Shown: positions 31,773 to 38,549 of the stretch, piece by piece
How the letters are laid out: each line of letters begins with the position of its first letter
Position numbering within the stretch: position 1 is the stretch's first letter
DNA from: Calothrix membranacea FACHB-236
Lineage (GTDB): Bacteria; Cyanobacteriota; Cyanobacteriia; Cyanobacteriales; Nostocaceae
Length of the DNA: 64,000 nt
Direction: 5' to 3'
NCBI RefSeq assembly: GCF_014696315.1
Contig: NZ_JACJPX010000005.1
Coordinates: 62,001-126,000 of the forward strand
Program-made: the position numbers and the translations under genes
The notes under the pieces: model-generated
The model's database searches: none
The model's input: the letters and a program-made list of their open reading frames with translations, nothing else
What the model was told of the DNA's origin: nothing

Positions 31773-33026
31773 TCAGTTCCCAGGTTTTTTGGGAGCCTCA
31801 TAGTAATTTATTTGTCCTGAACCACTAAGAGCAGTAATATTGCTGTCTGAGATATTGAAGGTGTTCGAGTACTGTTGCTGTGGAGAACTGACATCCTCAG
31901 ATTTAGCAGGAGATTGAGGATTTACTGTTTGCGCTTCAGCTAGAGGTGTGGTTTGCTCTTGTTGGGGAATGATACGTGCTGCAATTGGCGCTATATCTTC
32001 GTCACCAAGACCTAAAATTTGCTGTAACTTTTTTAATTGACTGCGAGTATTTTCACTTACAATCGGTTCTTGTTGAACTACCTCAACTAGTACCTGTTCA
32101 TACTGTTGTAACTTCTTTTTGTACTCCCGATAAGGTTGCAAAACCTCAGTTTCAATGGCGCTGATTTCCTCTGGATGCAATCCCAAACTTTCGCCAAATG
32201 CATCTAAGACTTTTCTCCCTATAAAAGAAATCTCTCCTTGGCTAGCGTAAGCTTCAACTTCTTTGCGATATCTCAACTTGGCATCGCCTACAGGAGCTTG
32301 AGCCAGTATAATTTTGTACCCTTCTTTAACTGCATAGATTTCTGGTTTCATGGCTGGTGCTGCTGCTTGCACTTTGTTTTTGGCATATTCATGCAACTCA
32401 TCTACAGAAATTACACCATCACCATCTCGATCCGCCATTCCGGTTTCAATACCTTCAACTAGATAGCGGGTATAAATTGACAACTCTGAGCCTTGCTGCT
32501 CAAATGAATACTGAGTTGAAGTAGAAGAGGTGAGAATCACTCGCCCTTCTCCACCTAGTTGAGTTTTGATATCAACAGCACCGTCATCTTTAGCTAATAA
32601 ACCCTCAGCAAACGCGCCACTAAAGCAACAATCAAGAATTACAACTTGGCGTTTTGAGCGGCTGTTGCTCATAATGTCATGGACAAAACTAGCAGCAACT
32701 GCTGTGGATTTGCGGAGTGCGCCGCGTTCGTCTTTGCGTGTCAGGCGTGTTGCAAAGTAAAGCCTACCCGCATCATCTTTAACGCCATGTCCCGAGAAAA
32801 ACAACAACACTAAGTCATCTTTAGCACGACCAGAGAAGAAAGTTTCAATCGCCTCTTGCATTTCCAGAGGATCGGGATTGTGGAGGATTTGGATATCTGA
32901 AAAATTGCCGATTTCTGGATGTTGTAAAATACGCTGTATTGCCAGCACATCCTTTTCAGCCGCAGGTAGAGCAGTTAAACCAGGCTGATACTGACTTACT
33001 TCAATGAGCAGTGCTAATTTTGCCAT
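31773..33026 (-). CDS. Caspase-like (metacaspase, C14) protease with EF-hand loop
   Basis: A 417-residue protein. Residues 1-240 form a p20/p10-like caspase domain with FFSGHG (His80) and LDCCFSG (catalytic Cys probably 134). A perfect EF-hand loop, DRDGDGVISVDE (199-210), lies in the p10 part, implying calcium control. Residues about 250-350 are a helical domain with the LQQILGLGDEDI-type segment frequent in cyanobacterial multidomain proteins. After a Pro/Gln linker comes the C-terminal motif ITALSGSGQINYYEA (397-411), also present in the pentapeptide protein at 36.4-38.4 kb. It lies 75 bp downstream of the trypsin-like gene on the same strand, so both may be one operon. Confidence 0.9.
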   Translation of the reverse strand: MAKLALLIEVSQYQPGLTALPAAEKDVLAIQRILQHPEIGNFSDIQILHNPDPLEMQEAIETFFSGRAKDDLVLLFFSGHGVKDDAGRLYFATRLTRKDERGALRKSTAVAASFVHDIMSNSRSKRQVVILDCCFSGAFAEGLLAKDDGAVDIKTQLGGEGRVILTSSTSTQYSFEQQGSELSIYTRYLVEGIETGMADRDGDGVISVDELHEYAKNKVQAAAPAMKPEIYAVKEGYKIILAQAPVGDAKLRYRKEVEAYASQGEISFIGRKVLDAFGESLGLHPEEISAIETEVLQPYREYKKKLQQYEQVLVEVVQQEPIVSENTRSQLKKLQQILGLGDEDIAPIAARIIPQQEQTTPLAEAQTVNPQSPAKSEDVSSPQQQYSNTFNISDSNITALSGSGQINYYEAPKKPGN

Positions 33027-33101
33027 TTTATTAACGATAAATTTATCAATAATTTGGGGATGAGTGACGATGCGATCGCCACTTGCTGATCAAATTTAAA
33101 T

Positions 33102-36100
33102 TTACTGCTGTTTGGAGATTTTAATGGGTGGTGAGGGGAAGCAGGTTGCTTGTCCAACAATCTTACCAGGCTTGCCGTTGACAAGGTTACGCACATTTTT
33201 GTCGTCATCTAGCCGCCAGTAACCAACCAAGTCTTTTTCTTTACCCGTCAACCGTCGGGACATATTGGCTTTAATCTCATCTTGAGTACGGGCTACTTTC
33301 CAGAGTCGGACATCAGCGATCGCCACACTATAATAAATCTCTTTTTCTTCTTTGCAACCAATTTTGAGAGGTTCTGTAAGTTGTGGTAAAGGCCCTGTAA
33401 ATAAACCAATACTCTTGGCTTTCCCAGCAAAAATAATAGTTTGAGATTGTCCTTCTACTACACAGTCCTGAATTCTACCGTCAATGTATATCGAAATTTC
33501 TCGCGATTGATTATCCCAAGTAAAAGCAACATGATGCCATACCTGATCCTGTGGAGCATTTTCTTTTGTATAAACGGTAGTTTTTTCAGAGGAATTTTTC
33601 AAAAATACACGAATTTTGCCGTTGTACCAAGATAGAGAATAGCCATTTTTCTCCCTATCAACTCTACTAACAATCACACAATTACCAAATTTGTGTTTCA
33701 ACCAAGCTTCAACAGTAATTAGTTCATTGACATTGAGACTTTCATCATTGCCACAATCTACATAATTGTTTTTATCATCAAATTTTAAAGACGATGGTAA
33801 TAGGGGAGCAGGAAAGTTAGATTGGCGTAACCATTTTGGCTCTCCATATATTTCTAAAACCTGATGATTATTTGTAGATATGAGACTATTTATTTTATCA
33901 CCCCTACCTTCTTCAAATTGCCACTGACTAATCAGAACATTCTTCTCATCCTTTAAGCAAACTTTAGCGATCGCACCTCTAAATAAACTCCACAAATTAC
34001 CTTTACAGGGAAAATCTGGAATAGAAAAATTTTTATTTGAGTAGCCCCCAATAATTATCGGGCTACCTTGAGTGATATCAATATTTAAGGCTGTATTTTT
34101 GGTTTTATGTTGAATTATTCCCAAATTTTGATTAGCTGTTTTTTGGCACAAATTTAATTTACTGGAATGTCCGTTAATTTGAATATCTATTTTTAAATTT
34201 TCATTTTCTTTTCTATAAGTTATATTGATTTGATTAAATTCACCAAAATTAACTACTTCTTCAGTCTCATAGTCATAAGACTGAATTACAGTAATCAATT
34301 TCTGCGTCAGCGGCCCACAAACACCATCTGGTTTCAGTCCAAAATCTTTTTGAAATTGCTTTACAGAATTGCATGTTTCCTTAGTATAAACACCATCCAA
34401 TTGACCATTATAATAATCAAGATTCATTAACAATTTCTGAAGACCTTTGACTATTTCTCCTTGACTGGGATTTTCAGTAACAGGAATTTTTAAATTATTT
34501 TTTTCATAAGGTAGCTGATCAAGATCATCATAGTTAAGTTCATATAAACCTAAAAAGGTAATTTGGGAATTTAAATAATTTAATATTTGCGAATCTATAT
34601 CACTAATATCTTTTGTAGGGTCAAACTGAATATTTTTTTGCAGATTTGCTACGTGTTGTAATGCATTTTTAGTAGCATCATCATATCTACCATTCACGCA
34701 AATATTATAGCTAAGAATTTTCAGAATACTTTGCAGATTAAATATAAATTCTTGCGCTCTAATGTCTTCTTGAGGTATTTCTAGCGGTAGAGTTGGGAGT
34801 GTATACATTTTTCGAGAAAAAATAATTTTTCCTTGTTTGTTTATATATACTCGTAAAGCATCATACCCCAGCGTTGCTATACAGTTATTAGAAAAAGCTT
34901 GGTAGAACTTGCTAAATACTGTACTCTCAACTTCATTAGAGTAAGGACAAATCAAAGCCTCAATGCTAAATCCATTACTAAATTGAGGCTGCTCAAGGAA
35001 TTGACAATCTTCCGTATTCTTTAAAAGAATATAATCATTAAATCCATCTAATTCGATAGCAAATGCTAGAGGCGGATTATTTAGCTGTTCCGAGGTAATC
35101 ACAAAGTCTTCAATAAAGTTTCTGAGTTTCCGATAATGAAAACTCTTTTTCTTTAAATCTTCAACTATGCGACAAATTCTGATTCCTTGTTGAGCAATTA
35201 TTTCAACTTGATGATTTTGCTCGTCTTCTTGAGCATCTTTAGGTACGGCTGCATGATGTAATGCTACTGCTTCCCATTTACTATTAACAACTAAACCGCC
35301 AGAAGAACCATAATCAGAATCTACTTTATATCTGAGAAAACTTTTATATAAGCCATTCTCAATAACTTTATTATTACTGATATCTATCTTTTTTTGTTTA
35401 CCTTTAGGATGGTGAACAATAAATATATTATCACCACTATTTGTTTCTTTACCTAACTTAGATAAAAGCTCTAAGTCTTCATAATTGAGATTACTTTCTA
35501 TCTCTGGGGTTAATCCAGGAAAAATATTGAGTTCGTTTTCAATCAACTGAATCCAATCAAAGTAATACCCAGCTTGTCTAGTAAACATACTAGATTTTAG
35601 TTGTACAAGCGTGTAATCTAAACTTGGCTCATTTACAAATAAGATTTCTGGATCTAACTCATAATCTATAGTTTGCTGCGTATAACCCAGAGTATCTTCA
35701 ATGTAGTTAAATTGGGCAACACACTGACTAGCTATTTTTTTATCACTGATCACGTGATTATTAGTAATTAAATGAGTAACACCTACTAAAAATCCAGTTC
35801 CTATGGGAATAGGATTGAGAACAGACATTTGGCTTTCAGAAATATTTTTTAGCTTTTCTAAGTAAAACAGACCCTTTAACGGCTCATCAATTGGTGCTTC
35901 ACTTTCAAGAAATATTTTATTAAATGTCTCATCTGGCATAGAAAATATTTCTTTGATTTTTGCTGGTTGATTAAAATTATTATCATCCCTTCTTTTCTCA
36001 ATCTCCTGCTTAATAGATTCTAGAAAATCTTGAAAATCCTTAAGAGGAAAGAATCTAGCAATTCGACATACAGCTAAACTGCGTTTCATCCCCACCTGTA

Positions 36101-36344
36101 GAGAGGAAACGGGTAGAATATCTCGCTCATCAGAGCCTACGGAAACTGATGACTTTTGATTATTGAGCAAGCGCAATCTTTCTTTAACAATTGCTAAAAT
36201 TTTGTCTTTATCTTCTAAATCCAGGTTGCTTAAAAAATCTTGTTCTTCAGGTATACCAGAGAGGAATCTCCACCCTCCCAATCCCCCTTGTTTAATCCAA
36301 TTTACTTGAGTAAGCAAAGTCAACAAATTAGCACTACTTTTCAT
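33102..36344 (-). CDS. Trypsin-like protease with LamG and peptidoglycan-binding domains
   Basis: About 1080 residues from ATG 36344, with AGAGG just upstream; ATG 36359 is an alternative. Residues 1-120 are a helical N-terminal module. Residues 175-395 form a trypsin-fold protease with triad His197 (ITNNHVI), Asp243 (SLDYTLVQL) and Ser348 (YGSSGG). A LamG-like jelly roll begins at 425, is interrupted by two peptidoglycan-binding-like repeats (about 525-590 and 630-690; GLQKLLMNLDYYNGQLDGVY), and resumes at 695-820. A second complete LamG spans 850-1070 (WHHVAFTWDNQSREISIYIDG). There is no signal peptide, so it is probably cytoplasmic. It is upstream of the caspase gene and divergent from the pentapeptide gene. 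Confidence 0.85.
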   Translation of the reverse strand: MKSSANLLTLLTQVNWIKQGGLGGWRFLSGIPEEQDFLSNLDLEDKDKILAIVKERLRLLNNQKSSVSVGSDERDILPVSSLQVGMKRSLAVCRIARFFPLKDFQDFLESIKQEIEKRRDDNNFNQPAKIKEIFSMPDETFNKIFLESEAPIDEPLKGLFYLEKLKNISESQMSVLNPIPIGTGFLVGVTHLITNNHVISDKKIASQCVAQFNYIEDTLGYTQQTIDYELDPEILFVNEPSLDYTLVQLKSSMFTRQAGYYFDWIQLIENELNIFPGLTPEIESNLNYEDLELLSKLGKETNSGDNIFIVHHPKGKQKKIDISNNKVIENGLYKSFLRYKVDSDYGSSGGLVVNSKWEAVALHHAAVPKDAQEDEQNHQVEIIAQQGIRICRIVEDLKKKSFHYRKLRNFIEDFVITSEQLNNPPLAFAIELDGFNDYILLKNTEDCQFLEQPQFSNGFSIEALICPYSNEVESTVFSKFYQAFSNNCIATLGYDALRVYINKQGKIIFSRKMYTLPTLPLEIPQEDIRAQEFIFNLQSILKILSYNICVNGRYDDATKNALQHVANLQKNIQFDPTKDISDIDSQILNYLNSQITFLGLYELNYDDLDQLPYEKNNLKIPVTENPSQGEIVKGLQKLLMNLDYYNGQLDGVYTKETCNSVKQFQKDFGLKPDGVCGPLTQKLITVIQSYDYETEEVVNFGEFNQINITYRKENENLKIDIQINGHSSKLNLCQKTANQNLGIIQHKTKNTALNIDITQGSPIIIGGYSNKNFSIPDFPCKGNLWSLFRGAIAKVCLKDEKNVLISQWQFEEGRGDKINSLISTNNHQVLEIYGEPKWLRQSNFPAPLLPSSLKFDDKNNYVDCGNDESLNVNELITVEAWLKHKFGNCVIVSRVDREKNGYSLSWYNGKIRVFLKNSSEKTTVYTKENAPQDQVWHHVAFTWDNQSREISIYIDGRIQDCVVEGQSQTIIFAGKAKSIGLFTGPLPQLTEPLKIGCKEEKEIYYSVAIADVRLWKVARTQDEIKANMSRRLTGKEKDLVGYWRLDDDKNVRNLVNGKPGKIVGQATCFPSPPIKISKQQ

Positions 36345-36425
36345 ATAACCTCTATTCATATAAAATGTTATTTTTTAGCTTTATAGTATATATTAATACA
36401 ATCTAGCTAAACTAATAGCATTGTT

Positions 36426-38432
36426 ATGCATAATACTAATAAGCAGAGTCTTCACATAAAAAAAGTTCCTGGTCGAATATATGTACAAGAAAACCTGGAA
36501 ACTGATATGGGTAGCGTAATAGCAGGTCAAACTACCTATAGCAAAATTATATTAATTTTATCTGTAATTTTTATTTGTGTTTTGTTAAGTATTATATCGG
36601 GATATTTGGGTGCAATTACAAGCCTATATATCAGTGTAGACACTCAACTGCGTTTAGGGTATTCACTGATGACGCTCGTTTTGGTTAGCTGGTTTTTGAC
36701 CACAATTTATCAGGGTTGGAGTCGAAGTATATTGTCAGTCATCTTAGCAATATTCTTAGCTATAACAGGAGCAAATATACTCGCGGGAATGAATCAATTA
36801 AAACTACCTGAACAGTTTTTCTTTGCAACTTCAGTATTGATAGTTGTAGGACTAGTGATATGTAACGCTTGCTTCTATTTTTTTCGTTTTACTGCTGCCT
36901 TATTTGATGTTTTACTACCTAAACACCACTGGGTATGGATGGCTTCTAGATTTGCTAGTGCTTTAATTAACATTTTGGCAGCAAAAATTGGCTCGGATAT
37001 AGGATTCTTTGCTGCTAAAACCAATGGTGATTGGCTCCAAGATATTTTGCCAAAATTACCAGAAACAGAACAATTAGCTCTAACTATAATTGCTATTTTA
37101 AGTGGAATTTTATTAACTTTAATACTTACCCTAAGTAGCTGGTGGGTTAATTATCACCAAAATGTACCTTGGCGGTATCCTGATTTACTACGTTCCTGGG
37201 TATTAGCTGTTGGTTCTTGGTGTGGTACTTCTTTCCAAAACTTAGATTTAAGCGGAGTAAATTTTCGCAAAGCTAAGTTAGCGAACACTGACTTGCGAGC
37301 CAAAAAACTTTATCGCACTTGTTTCCAAGGTGTCACCGGATTGGAAAGAGCTAGAGTTGATAGCCGCTATATGGATTTAGAAAATCCTCAAGTCCAAAAA
37401 CTTTTAACTCACGGATATTCCGAAACAAAGGACTTGCGTGACCTCAATTTGCGAGGAGCTTATTTGCAAAATGCAGATTTACGTCAACTAGATTTTACTG
37501 ATACCGATTTGACTGGCGCAGATTTACAAAATGCAGATTTGCGAGGCAGTATTTTGGTGCGAACTCAAGTTATTGGGGTAGATTTTACTGGCGCAAATTT
37601 AACGGGGATTTGTATTCAAGATTGGAGTGTGAATAGCCAAACTAATTTTACGAATGTGGAATGTGAATACATCTATCGCAAATTAAATGACAAAGGCGAG
37701 CCAAGCGATCGCTATCCTTTAGAAGGGCAGAGTTTTGCACCCAGAGAGTTTGAATCTCTGTATCAAGAAGTGGGTAATGTTGTGGAATTAGTTTTTAAAG
37801 AAGGTGTTAACTGGCGAGCTTTTGCCTTTACTTTACAAAAGCTACAAATAGAAGATGATGGACTAGGATTAGAACTCAAGGGTATTGAAAGACGGGGCGA
37901 TTTGTGGGTAGTGAAGGTGAAGCATAATGAGAACGCACCCAAAGAAATTGTCGAACAGCGCCTTAATGGTCTTTACCCCGAAATGCTGAATCTGCTGGCG
38001 ACAAAAGAACAACAAATTAATAAGCTATTAGGTATTGCCGCAGATCAAGCAGAAGCTTTAAAAGGTTATAGTAAACAGCCTTTTGGTAATCATTTTTTCA
38101 TTACTGGTAGTACTATTACCAATCTCGCTGGCTCTGGTCAAATTGATTACGATGAAGCAGCTGATCAAGTTCGCAGCATTGTTGCTCATGGTAGTAATTT
38201 AGATGCAGCCCATGCCAAAGCTCAAAATCTCTTAAATCAACTGCAAGGACAGAGTGTCGCTACTACCTCGGATCAACAAGCAGAACTCATCCAACAAGTT
38301 ATTCTCACTGAAGCCAATAAAGATCCTTTTTTCAAGCAGTTTTTGCTGCAACAAGGTCAGCAAATTACTACCACAATGCCAGAAAGTGCGATGAATAAAG
38401 CTATGCAAGCCGCAATCGCTCAACTCAGGTAA
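36426..38432 (+). CDS. Membrane pentapeptide-repeat protein
   Basis: A 668-residue protein with five hydrophobic helices in the first 240 residues (about 41-66, 78-96, 102-120, 132-154, 218-240). Pentapeptide repeats follow at 272-395 (A(D/N)LxG type, for example LRGAYLQNADLRQLDF), forming a right-handed quadrilateral beta-helix. Residues about 415-545 (FESLYQEVGNVVELVFKEGVNW onward) are a domain frequent in cyanobacterial pentapeptide proteins. At 554-578 lies ITNLAGSGQIDYDEA, shared with the caspase C-terminus, followed by a Gln/Ala-rich helical tail. It is divergent from the trypsin-like gene, 81 bp from the start preferred for it, so a common control region is likely. Confidence 0.82.
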   Translation: MHNTNKQSLHIKKVPGRIYVQENLETDMGSVIAGQTTYSKIILILSVIFICVLLSIISGYLGAITSLYISVDTQLRLGYSLMTLVLVSWFLTTIYQGWSRSILSVILAIFLAITGANILAGMNQLKLPEQFFFATSVLIVVGLVICNACFYFFRFTAALFDVLLPKHHWVWMASRFASALINILAAKIGSDIGFFAAKTNGDWLQDILPKLPETEQLALTIIAILSGILLTLILTLSSWWVNYHQNVPWRYPDLLRSWVLAVGSWCGTSFQNLDLSGVNFRKAKLANTDLRAKKLYRTCFQGVTGLERARVDSRYMDLENPQVQKLLTHGYSETKDLRDLNLRGAYLQNADLRQLDFTDTDLTGADLQNADLRGSILVRTQVIGVDFTGANLTGICIQDWSVNSQTNFTNVECEYIYRKLNDKGEPSDRYPLEGQSFAPREFESLYQEVGNVVELVFKEGVNWRAFAFTLQKLQIEDDGLGLELKGIERRGDLWVVKVKHNENAPKEIVEQRLNGLYPEMLNLLATKEQQINKLLGIAADQAEALKGYSKQPFGNHFFITGSTITNLAGSGQIDYDEAADQVRSIVAHGSNLDAAHAKAQNLLNQLQGQSVATTSDQQAELIQQVILTEANKDPFFKQFLLQQGQQITTTMPESAMNKAMQAAIAQLR

Positions 38433-38549
38433 TCGAAAAAGTGCGATCGCCACAAAATTTCGGTTAGGGGAGAAGGGGAAAACGTGAAAGGGTAAATTCT
38501 CACCTGTCCACTGTTCTCAAAGCATCGCTGTCATAACCTCTACTAATAC

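Follow-up and report, generated by a model that had tools for sequence, protein, structure and literature searches.

Which partner could control a caspase homologue in a cyanobacterium, and through what kind of connection? To our knowledge the activator of these enzymes is unclear, and we know of bacterial amyloid signalling only in association with NLRs. The question is raised by a locus of Calothrix membranacea FACHB-236 that lies in the window, i.e. the whole 64,000-nucleotide stretch of DNA that was analysed. A preliminary description had recognised a metacaspase-type gene, a trypsin-fold protease gene and a divergent membrane pentapeptide gene, here termed the hub, and all three open reading frames are present as described. 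The coordinates likewise give the 75 bp gap between the caspase and protease genes. Protease and hub do diverge, but their start codons are 66 bp apart and not about 80 bp.

31773..33026, minus strand: caspase open reading frame, the effector (417 aa; open reading frame list, Pfam, NCBIfam)
33102..36359, minus strand: trypsin-like protease open reading frame (1085 aa; open reading frame list, Pfam, predicted model)
36360..36425: intergenic stretch of 66 bp from which protease and hub diverge (coordinates)
36426..38432, plus strand: hub, the membrane pentapeptide protein open reading frame (668 aa; open reading frame list, Pfam, predicted model)
31777..38542: the three genes as one unit, the stretch that a genome of the same genus (L229) lacks at its homologous site

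The unit of about 6.8 kb sits between arsR and pstS and is missing or decayed in relatives, where empty sites and one decayed copy were found. The same three-gene set recurs in other genomes, which places it beyond chance, and one copy of the module resides on a conjugative plasmid; judging from the sequences, the module is gained or lost in one piece. The preliminary description had also noted that an NTPase gene is lacking, and a Pfam scan of 10 flanking genes of the window found none among them.

What had been missed is a motif of about 25 residues, NxFxIxxSxIxxLxGSGxIxY, which is common to the tail of the caspase and the hub.

31785..31871, minus strand: coupling motif, effector copy NTFNISDSNITALSGSGQINYYEA, in the caspase C-terminal tail (motif searches)
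38082..38171, plus strand: coupling motif, hub copy GNHFFITGSTITNLAGSGQIDYDEA (motif searches; three short strands in the model)

Genome-wide searches matched caspase and hub, both at 1.7e-24 or better; after these two, nothing convincing followed in the genome, the next best matches standing at E 0.9 and 1.6. A survey of 388 genomes, in which at most 21 candidates were scored per genome and matches at E <= 1e-9 were taken as strong, returned 28 such matches with E-values down to 1.5e-18, divided into 14 hubs and 14 effectors. All of them are hubs or C14, CHAT or TIR proteins, with no NLR among these 28, and the motif is near-exclusive to hubs and effectors. For 11 of the 14 hubs an effector gene lies no more than about 12 kb away on their own contig; two further hubs sit at or near contig ends, with their effectors encoded on a different contig, and one of those effector matches is weak (2.9e-4). 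The motif occupies N-terminal, C-terminal or internal positions in unrelated enzymes, and its region has no Pfam match at E <= 0.1. In the AF2 monomer model of the hub it is predicted as three short strands between helices (block pLDDT 76-87). Cognate identity of paired hub and effector motifs is 0.559 versus 0.534, a value reached in 9 of 20,000 permutations, and neither the Mantel test (r 0.014, p 0.44) nor its partial form (-0.14, p 0.84) shows a correlation; locus-specific co-divergence of the pairs is weak. Viral copies of motif or hub, which might serve as decoys, were sought in viral_contigs, where none of 284 and 560 pattern stretches was confirmed by tblastn.

The three proteins have distinct architectures. 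The window caspase combines a C14 domain with a His-Cys dyad (SGHG / DCC, both catalytic residues kept) and is thus an orthocaspase, i.e. a prokaryotic C14 protein. It matches the NCBIfam model caspase_w_EACC1 (NF047832) at 2.1e-51, with 174.4 bits against a cut-off of 140.

32334..33020, minus strand: Peptidase_C14 domain, residues 3-231 (Pfam 4.3e-19)
32379..32438, minus strand: EF-hand-like DxDxDG loop, residues 197-216, a possible Ca2+ site (Pfam, below cut-off)

A below-cut-off EF-hand-like match also occurs in L070. Among the effectors the catalytic Cys is retained in 29/29 and the His in 26/29, and the CHAT part has no catalytic His in two of the three double-enzyme effectors.

The protease carries the triad motifs NNHV / LDYT / GSSGG, its predicted structure resembles the V8 and FAM111A proteases, and no signal peptide that would mark it as secreted was seen on inspection by eye.

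35259..35801, minus strand: Trypsin_2 domain, residues 187-367, with H/D/S triad (Pfam 5.4e-12)
34299..34463, minus strand: PG_binding_1 domain, residues 633-687 (Pfam 4.2e-17)
33474..33779, minus strand: best LamG / concanavalin-like stretch, residues 861-962 (Pfam Laminin_G_3 1.7e-18)

The triad is conserved in 27 of 28 aligned trypsins, the remaining one being a broken open reading frame. At E <= 1e-20, and with the window included, all 14 trypsin loci are divergent to a hub-family gene, a pairing evident in the sequences that marks the divergent protease as the hub's apparent dedicated partner.

The five-helix membrane protein of the preliminary description is recovered as five hydrophobic, TM-like stretches within residues 41-235 (Kyte-Doolittle window), followed by pentapeptide repeats (Pfam Pentapeptide, 9e-20) and a soluble C-terminal arm.

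36534..37160, plus strand: membrane-helix region, residues 37-245 (predicted model, hydropathy)
37212..37655, plus strand: pentapeptide beta-helix, about residues 263-410 (Pfam, model, fold search)
37671..37925, plus strand: alpha/beta domain without a Pfam name, residues 416-500 (model; block pLDDT 57-71 over residues 441-500)
37941..38060, plus strand: long helix, residues 506-545 (model; 534-550 at pLDDT < 50)
38148..38426, plus strand: C-terminal helical bundle, residues 575-667 (model)

Matches listed by the fold search are nearly all pentapeptide-repeat structures, with no gasdermin among the 50 listed. The hub C-terminus is matched in 149 of 291 genomes. Among 20 motif-less hub relatives, none has a separate trypsin, CHAT, C14 or TIR gene in the fetched stretch. 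A second shared tail, followed across 13 genomes, links the motif-less hubs L144-L147 with the CHAT proteins L081 and L131.

The neighbourhoods strongly support the earlier proposal of a joint function for the three genes. Of 30 named hub loci, the trypsin gene is present at 22 and a third gene with the motif at 23, or at 24 when L133 is counted, whose motif gene sits just outside its fetched stretch; since the genes adjoin so often, the rarity that would have spoken against a joint function is not seen. The idea of a two-protease cascade at the core fares less well, because the third gene of the 24 loci is a C14 caspase in five cases only, a CHAT protein in 18 and a CHAT-TIR fusion in one. 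What stays constant is the hub together with the motif and, in most loci, the trypsin, so the cascade is one variant within a wider family. The same motif is found on C14, CHAT, TIR, CHAT-TIR and trypsin-CHAT proteins, and the fewest changes on the hub tree are five of enzyme class and ten of architecture. A plain TIR protein serves as putative effector in another genome (L059), with no trypsin beside it, and in L148 a hub-CHAT fusion lies beside the same trypsin. Trypsin and motif are separable, because the trypsin also accompanies L144-L148, five hubs that lack the motif or are fused; L071 has hub and trypsin with no motif effector nearby. Motif sharing, effector exchange and hub-effector fusion can all be read from the sequences.

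Several known systems invite comparison. Dyrka et al. reportedly described NLR-associated bacterial amyloid signalling in 2020, with the families BASS1-10. Passages in PMC7889193, PMC8086366 and PMC12261475 depict BASS as adjacent genes with a common short motif and a CHAT or TIR effector side, in filamentous bacteria including cyanobacteria. The window resembles this arrangement in the short motif shared by adjacent genes, in the CHAT and TIR effectors of its relatives and in its cyanobacterial host. It differs in that the partner is a membrane pentapeptide protein with no NLR seen among the 10 flanking genes, that a trypsin-like protease is usually the third member, and that effectors include C14 caspases and double-enzyme fusions; this comparison is with published descriptions of BASS. 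Pfam includes an EACC1 model, which has no match in the three genes and the 10 flanking genes. Parts of Kaur et al. (2020; PMC7159879) describe a two-gene membrane system of caspase and EACC1, a domain that has one TM helix. The likeness lies in a membrane protein paired with a caspase that passes the EACC1-associated model, whereas the hub combines pentapeptide repeats and the motif with five TM-like stretches. Membership was rejected, the gene 5' of the caspase being the trypsin and the membrane gene a five-TM pentapeptide protein. Models for EADs are included in Pfam and NCBIfam, and neither found an EAD in the three proteins. In sections of PMC7159879 and PMC8195603, EADs appear as mostly alpha-helical, small homotypic adaptors, with one core system recruiting TIR, caspase and trypsin. 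Exchange of C14, CHAT and TIR around a constant motif is similar, homotypic binding being putative here; in contrast, the window motif has about 25 residues and predicted short strands, and the flanking genes scanned include no NTPase. Gasdermin systems and nuclease-protease systems of bacteria, to judge from abstract beginnings, encode proteases with a membrane or toxic executor, whereas coupling in the window would run through a common motif, and no gasdermin or nuclease was identified; gasdermin membership seems improbable, given the 50 fold-search matches listed for the hub. PADLOC returned single-gene resemblances only (generic caspase, RT-Protease, ThsB-like TIR, CHAT) and nothing for the hub. 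Pentapeptide repeats as fused accessory domains of cyanobacterial orthocaspases are mentioned in portions of two reports (PMC8283722, PMC7475262), the former with 11 such entries in its domain table, for 473 orthocaspases. Titles and abstract beginnings of the open-licence papers listed in the searches yielded no description of such a hub-effector motif pair.

The reading that we favour, and hold to be reasonably probable, is a three-part, NLR-free and membrane-anchored conflict or cell-death module, coupled by a homotypic and probably amyloid-like motif, with the trypsin most likely in an upstream licensing role. We infer the amyloid nature, self-assembly, trigger, order of events and killing, while the kinds of effector suggest a role in cell death or conflict. 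The motif on the soluble C-terminal arm of the hub recurs in a separate effector enzyme. A trigger would cluster the hub, whose motifs could then nucleate a homotypic, probably beta-arch or amyloid-like assembly that draws in the effector and activates it by proximity; the active effector would damage the cell by proteolysis, or by NAD+ loss or signalling in the case of TIR. The trypsin-like protease would most likely license this step by cutting hub or effector, and the window copy may add its LamG and PG-binding parts to that role. Tentatively, the module may even belong to a signalosome class of its own, a membrane amyloid switch that works without an NLR, with the hub as templating receptor, a lectin-armed trypsin-like protease as its licensing factor, and caspase, CHAT, TIR or fused enzymes as plug-in effectors, the CHAT parts without His looking as if they were a scaffold for a new enzyme.

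That the neighbourhood is merely locally conserved, and the motif likeness a product of chance or gene conversion, is scarcely credible: the paired motifs lack Mantel correlation, as this would predict, but the 388-genome survey already contradicts it with its E-values, its unrelated enzymes, its even split between hubs and effectors and their co-location. Regulated proteolysis without killing, in heterocyst or stress development or in membrane protein quality control, seems distinctly improbable. Pentapeptide proteins such as HetL function in heterocyst differentiation, and the hub matches the HetL model, over the repeats only (50 bits; cut-off 260). Oxidative stress is the subject of an orthocaspase study (PMC7889975). 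Against this, patchy presence, empty and decayed sites, the conjugative-plasmid copy and the TIR swaps fit conflict better.

The polarity might also be reversed, with caspase, CHAT, TIR or trypsin on the sensor side and the hub as a BELL- or gasdermin-like membrane executioner that is released or seeded by the enzyme. Bacterial gasdermins go together with proteases, and the hub has its five TM-like stretches. Furthermore, in the published bacterial systems the motif connects NLRs with BELL proteins, for which membranes are the presumed target, according to a passage in PMC7889193. We nevertheless regard this reversal as improbable, in that most systems described in the consulted parts of PMC7159879 and PMC8195603 use CHAT, TIR and caspase as effectors, and motif-less hub relatives are widespread, those inspected having no adjoining enzyme gene. 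Rather unlikely, if somewhat less so, is that the homotypic motif is an ordinary folded, clamp-like dimerisation element which forms a stoichiometric hub-effector complex at the membrane. The predicted position of the strands between helices would suit such a clamp, and the L148 fusion indicates that plain tethering can substitute for the motif; however, a stretch of about 25 residues with a Gly/Asn/Ser pattern, placed in tails or linkers as an exchangeable tag, resembles the amyloid signalling motifs presented in portions of PMC7889193 and PMC8086366.

Overall, the locus supplies a named membrane partner for a caspase together with a 25-residue coupling element, and the natural C14, CHAT and TIR swaps and the natural fusion provide evolutionary controls. 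A constant tag on exchanged enzymes suggests a switch for cell death or defence that has so far escaped recognition and operates without the usual NLR sensor. If this is true, motif-templated death signalling would reach systems without an NTPase, and Nostoc-type cyanobacteria would offer a compact system in which to test regulated cell death.

The preliminary description had placed a C14 caspase, a trypsin-like protease and a divergent membrane pentapeptide protein (the hub) side by side, and open reading frames together with Pfam matches confirm this gene set:

31773-33026, minus strand, C14 caspase
33102-36359, minus strand, trypsin-like protease
36426-38432, plus strand, hub, the divergent membrane pentapeptide protein

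In the caspase the His/Cys dyad is in place and an EF-hand-like loop is recognisable (Pfam, below the cut-off); the protein scores above the threshold of the NCBIfam model for caspases associated with EACC1, the membrane partner of a described caspase two-gene system. The protease keeps its H/D/S triad and carries PG-binding and LamG domains (Pfam), and the model of its residues 1-470 (mean pLDDT 71.5) has FAM111A and V8-type proteases as nearest folds. In the hub model (mean pLDDT 81.9, pTM 0.59), membrane helices are followed by a pentapeptide beta-helix, a low-confidence alpha/beta domain that has no Pfam name, a long helix and, at the C-terminus, a helical bundle.

One motif of about 25 residues, NxFxIxxSxIxxLxGSGxIxY, occurs both in the tail of the caspase (NTFNISDSNITALSGSGQINYYEA) and in the hub (NHFFITGSTITNLAGSGQIDYDEA), where it is modelled as three short strands. 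A two-row profile of the motif finds the caspase and hub sites at 1.7e-24 and 4.2e-27 in the 8.8-Mb genome of the window and no third good site there, the next-best matches lying at E 0.9 and 1.6. Scoring at most the best 21 candidates per genome, beyond which more matches may exist, a motif-only survey of 388 genomes returned at least 28 matches at E <= 1e-9 in 15 genomes, namely 14 hubs and 14 effectors (separate motif-bearing enzymes). For 11 of the 14 hubs an effector is encoded on the hub's own contig, no more than about 12 kb away; the hubs of genomes G182 and G051 are at or near contig ends with the effector on a separate contig, and this survey found no effector for the partial hub of G034. 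Two effectors had no visible hub, one on a 4-kb contig (G326) and one in G214. Nine weaker matches (2.9e-4 to 0.035) comprise the G051 effector, a CHAT protein at 2.9e-4, and eight short partial matches. Peptidase_C14 loci number 21 in the window's genome, with the motif on only one.

The C-terminal 275 residues of the hub are matched in 149 of 291 genomes of the class (E <= 0.001, at most the best eight candidates per genome scored). Hub tails were inspected at 29 loci outside the window, where the 12 best-scoring carry the motif, the copy at L038 being degenerate. Thirteen motif hubs were fetched with their flanks, two of them near-identical (L060 and L061); a trypsin gene is divergently adjacent at 9/13 and a second motif-bearing gene lies close by at 9/13 (eight CHAT, one TIR), or 10/13 counting L133, an effector just beyond the fetched stretch of L057. 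A scan of genome contigs gave 30 named hub loci, overlapping with the 13 in several genomes, from Nostoc, Scytonema, Fischerella, Microcoleus, Argonema and others; trypsin is present at 22/30 and a motif-bearing third gene at 23/30 (24/30 with L133). Six have no such third gene: L075 is a 4-kb contig, the hub stands at a contig end in L092, is partial in L087 and broken in L096, L095 has a hub-like protein without the motif, and at L071, where hub and trypsin are both present, no motif effector was found nearby. The hub itself is cut, broken or off the contig in L093, L094, L097 and L098.

Trypsin matches at 1e-10 or better occur in 21 of 291 genomes, and at E <= 1e-20 every locus (14/14, window included) has the gene divergent to a hub-family gene. 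These include L144-L147, whose hubs bear a different tail in place of the motif, and L148, where a CHAT domain is fused to the hub C-terminus, a direct sign that hub and CHAT belong together. None of the seven weaker loci fetched (L149-L155, a set without G084:C87) has a full hub; a small pentapeptide protein lies some kilobases away at two of them, and the weak trypsin locus of G099 adjoins a motif hub. The partnership is not universal, trypsin being missing near the hub at some motif loci. As a control we took 20 motif-less hub relatives, the next 16 with a locus identifier in the hub C-terminus ranking plus those of G212, G123, G191 and G097, omitting G224, whose trypsin-bearing locus (L147) had been fetched earlier; a separate trypsin, CHAT, C14 or TIR gene was found near 0/20 in the fetched stretches, a few of them short at contig ends. 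On 18 motif loci the profiles recovered the effector in 18/18 and trypsin in 17/18 (all but L059), a partly circular figure as several loci supplied profile rows. One control relative (L188:7209-9431, G129) is itself a fusion, with a CHAT-like domain at the N-terminus, and its tail is of the KYDLRG type in place of the motif. The motif-less, trypsin-bearing hubs of L144-L147 share a second tail (GGDV...LSGQVTN plus helices), which recurs on two motif-bearing CHAT proteins (L081:7769-8173, L131:473-886) and elsewhere in the window's genome (G000:C77:104982-105329, G000:C108:40218-40559), and may represent a further coupling module of this family.

The third genes at 24 of the 30 named loci are of several kinds: window-type C14 (two), C14 of other architecture with an internal motif (three), CHAT (18) and a CHAT-motif-TIR protein (one). 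Across the analysis, CHAT calls rest on Pfam for 13 proteins and otherwise on our own profile; the CHAT domains of L133 and L157 were missed by Pfam and found with that profile (1e-68, 6e-87). A hub tree (27 proteins, motif excised), made by a quick method and including one long branch (L059) and two hub-effector pairs split across contigs, requires a minimum of five changes of enzyme class and ten of architecture, with C14 effectors in two separate places. Among 29 motif-bearing C14/CHAT effectors the catalytic Cys is kept in 29 and the His in 26, the exceptions being L133 (CHAT-TIR fusion), L157 (trypsin-CHAT fusion) and L083 (a CHAT protein of Microcoleus); both dyads are intact in the C14-CHAT fusion L130. 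The latter (L130:9983-13060, G214) is a C14-motif-CHAT protein of 1025 aa with a 668-aa CHAT protein downstream, without a hub within the 20 kb fetched or a second strong motif match in that genome. In Microcoleus vaginatus HSN003 (L083:4151-7065) three CHAT genes in a row adjoin trypsin and hub; the one with the motif is that without His, and its two neighbours are intact. The conjugative plasmid pMIC7113.01 of Allocoleopsis franciscana (L157) carries a hub, a divergent trypsin and a trypsin-motif-CHAT effector, adjoining genes for a CU044_2847-family protein and an ATP-binding protein, neighbours which suggest a larger conflict island.

Co-divergence of the partner motifs is not convincing. 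Over 25 pairs, with one near-duplicate dropped, cognate motifs showed a small identity excess (9 of 20,000 permutations as high) and no Mantel correlation. By eye, and as anecdotes, both motifs of L083 are one residue short, and TGAG is common to both motifs in the L088, L091 and L062 pairs.

In the window the unit lies between arsR and pstS, and seven relatives were compared at the homologous pstS. DNA of L229 (same genus) and L230 (same family) matches the window through arsR and resumes just before pstS, the 6.8 kb between being absent; in L231, L233 and L234 a gap of roughly 115-140 bp separates arsR from pstS, and arsR was not found beside pstS in L232. At the same site another member of the genus (L228:11318-11860, G390) retains a relic in which part of the trypsin 3' end is fused to the caspase C-terminus; the motif is intact there and the hub deleted. 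The stretch between caspase domain and motif (window caspase residues about 250-350; 31977-32279, minus strand), which has no Pfam match, is also retained there. The unit of Nostoc carneum NIES-2107 (L069) adjoins arsR and is 95% (caspase), 91% (trypsin) and 90% (hub) identical to that of the window; pstS was not found in its fetched flank. Judged from these alignments, the three genes are a unit that comes and goes, each case being either a gain or a loss.

The sharing of the motif between partners, the exchange of effectors and the natural hub-CHAT fusion together make it very probable that the motif acts as a coupling element. Two reports (PMC7889193, PMC8086366) describe amyloid signalling motifs of about 20 residues with a beta arch and polar residues, common to neighbouring genes, the effector among these being of CHAT or TIR type; by this resemblance, coupling could proceed via amyloid-like templating. 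Activation of a partner proenzyme by a trypsin-like protease has a reported precedent (PMC12799240). The module would work in a similar fashion to the signalosomes of NLR-associated bacterial amyloid signalling (BASS), but the partner there is an NLR, and since none was found for the window module, among the ten flanking genes scanned, it falls outside BASS as defined. The kinds of effector (C14, CHAT, TIR) and the mobility of the unit suggest that it may serve in cell death or defence.
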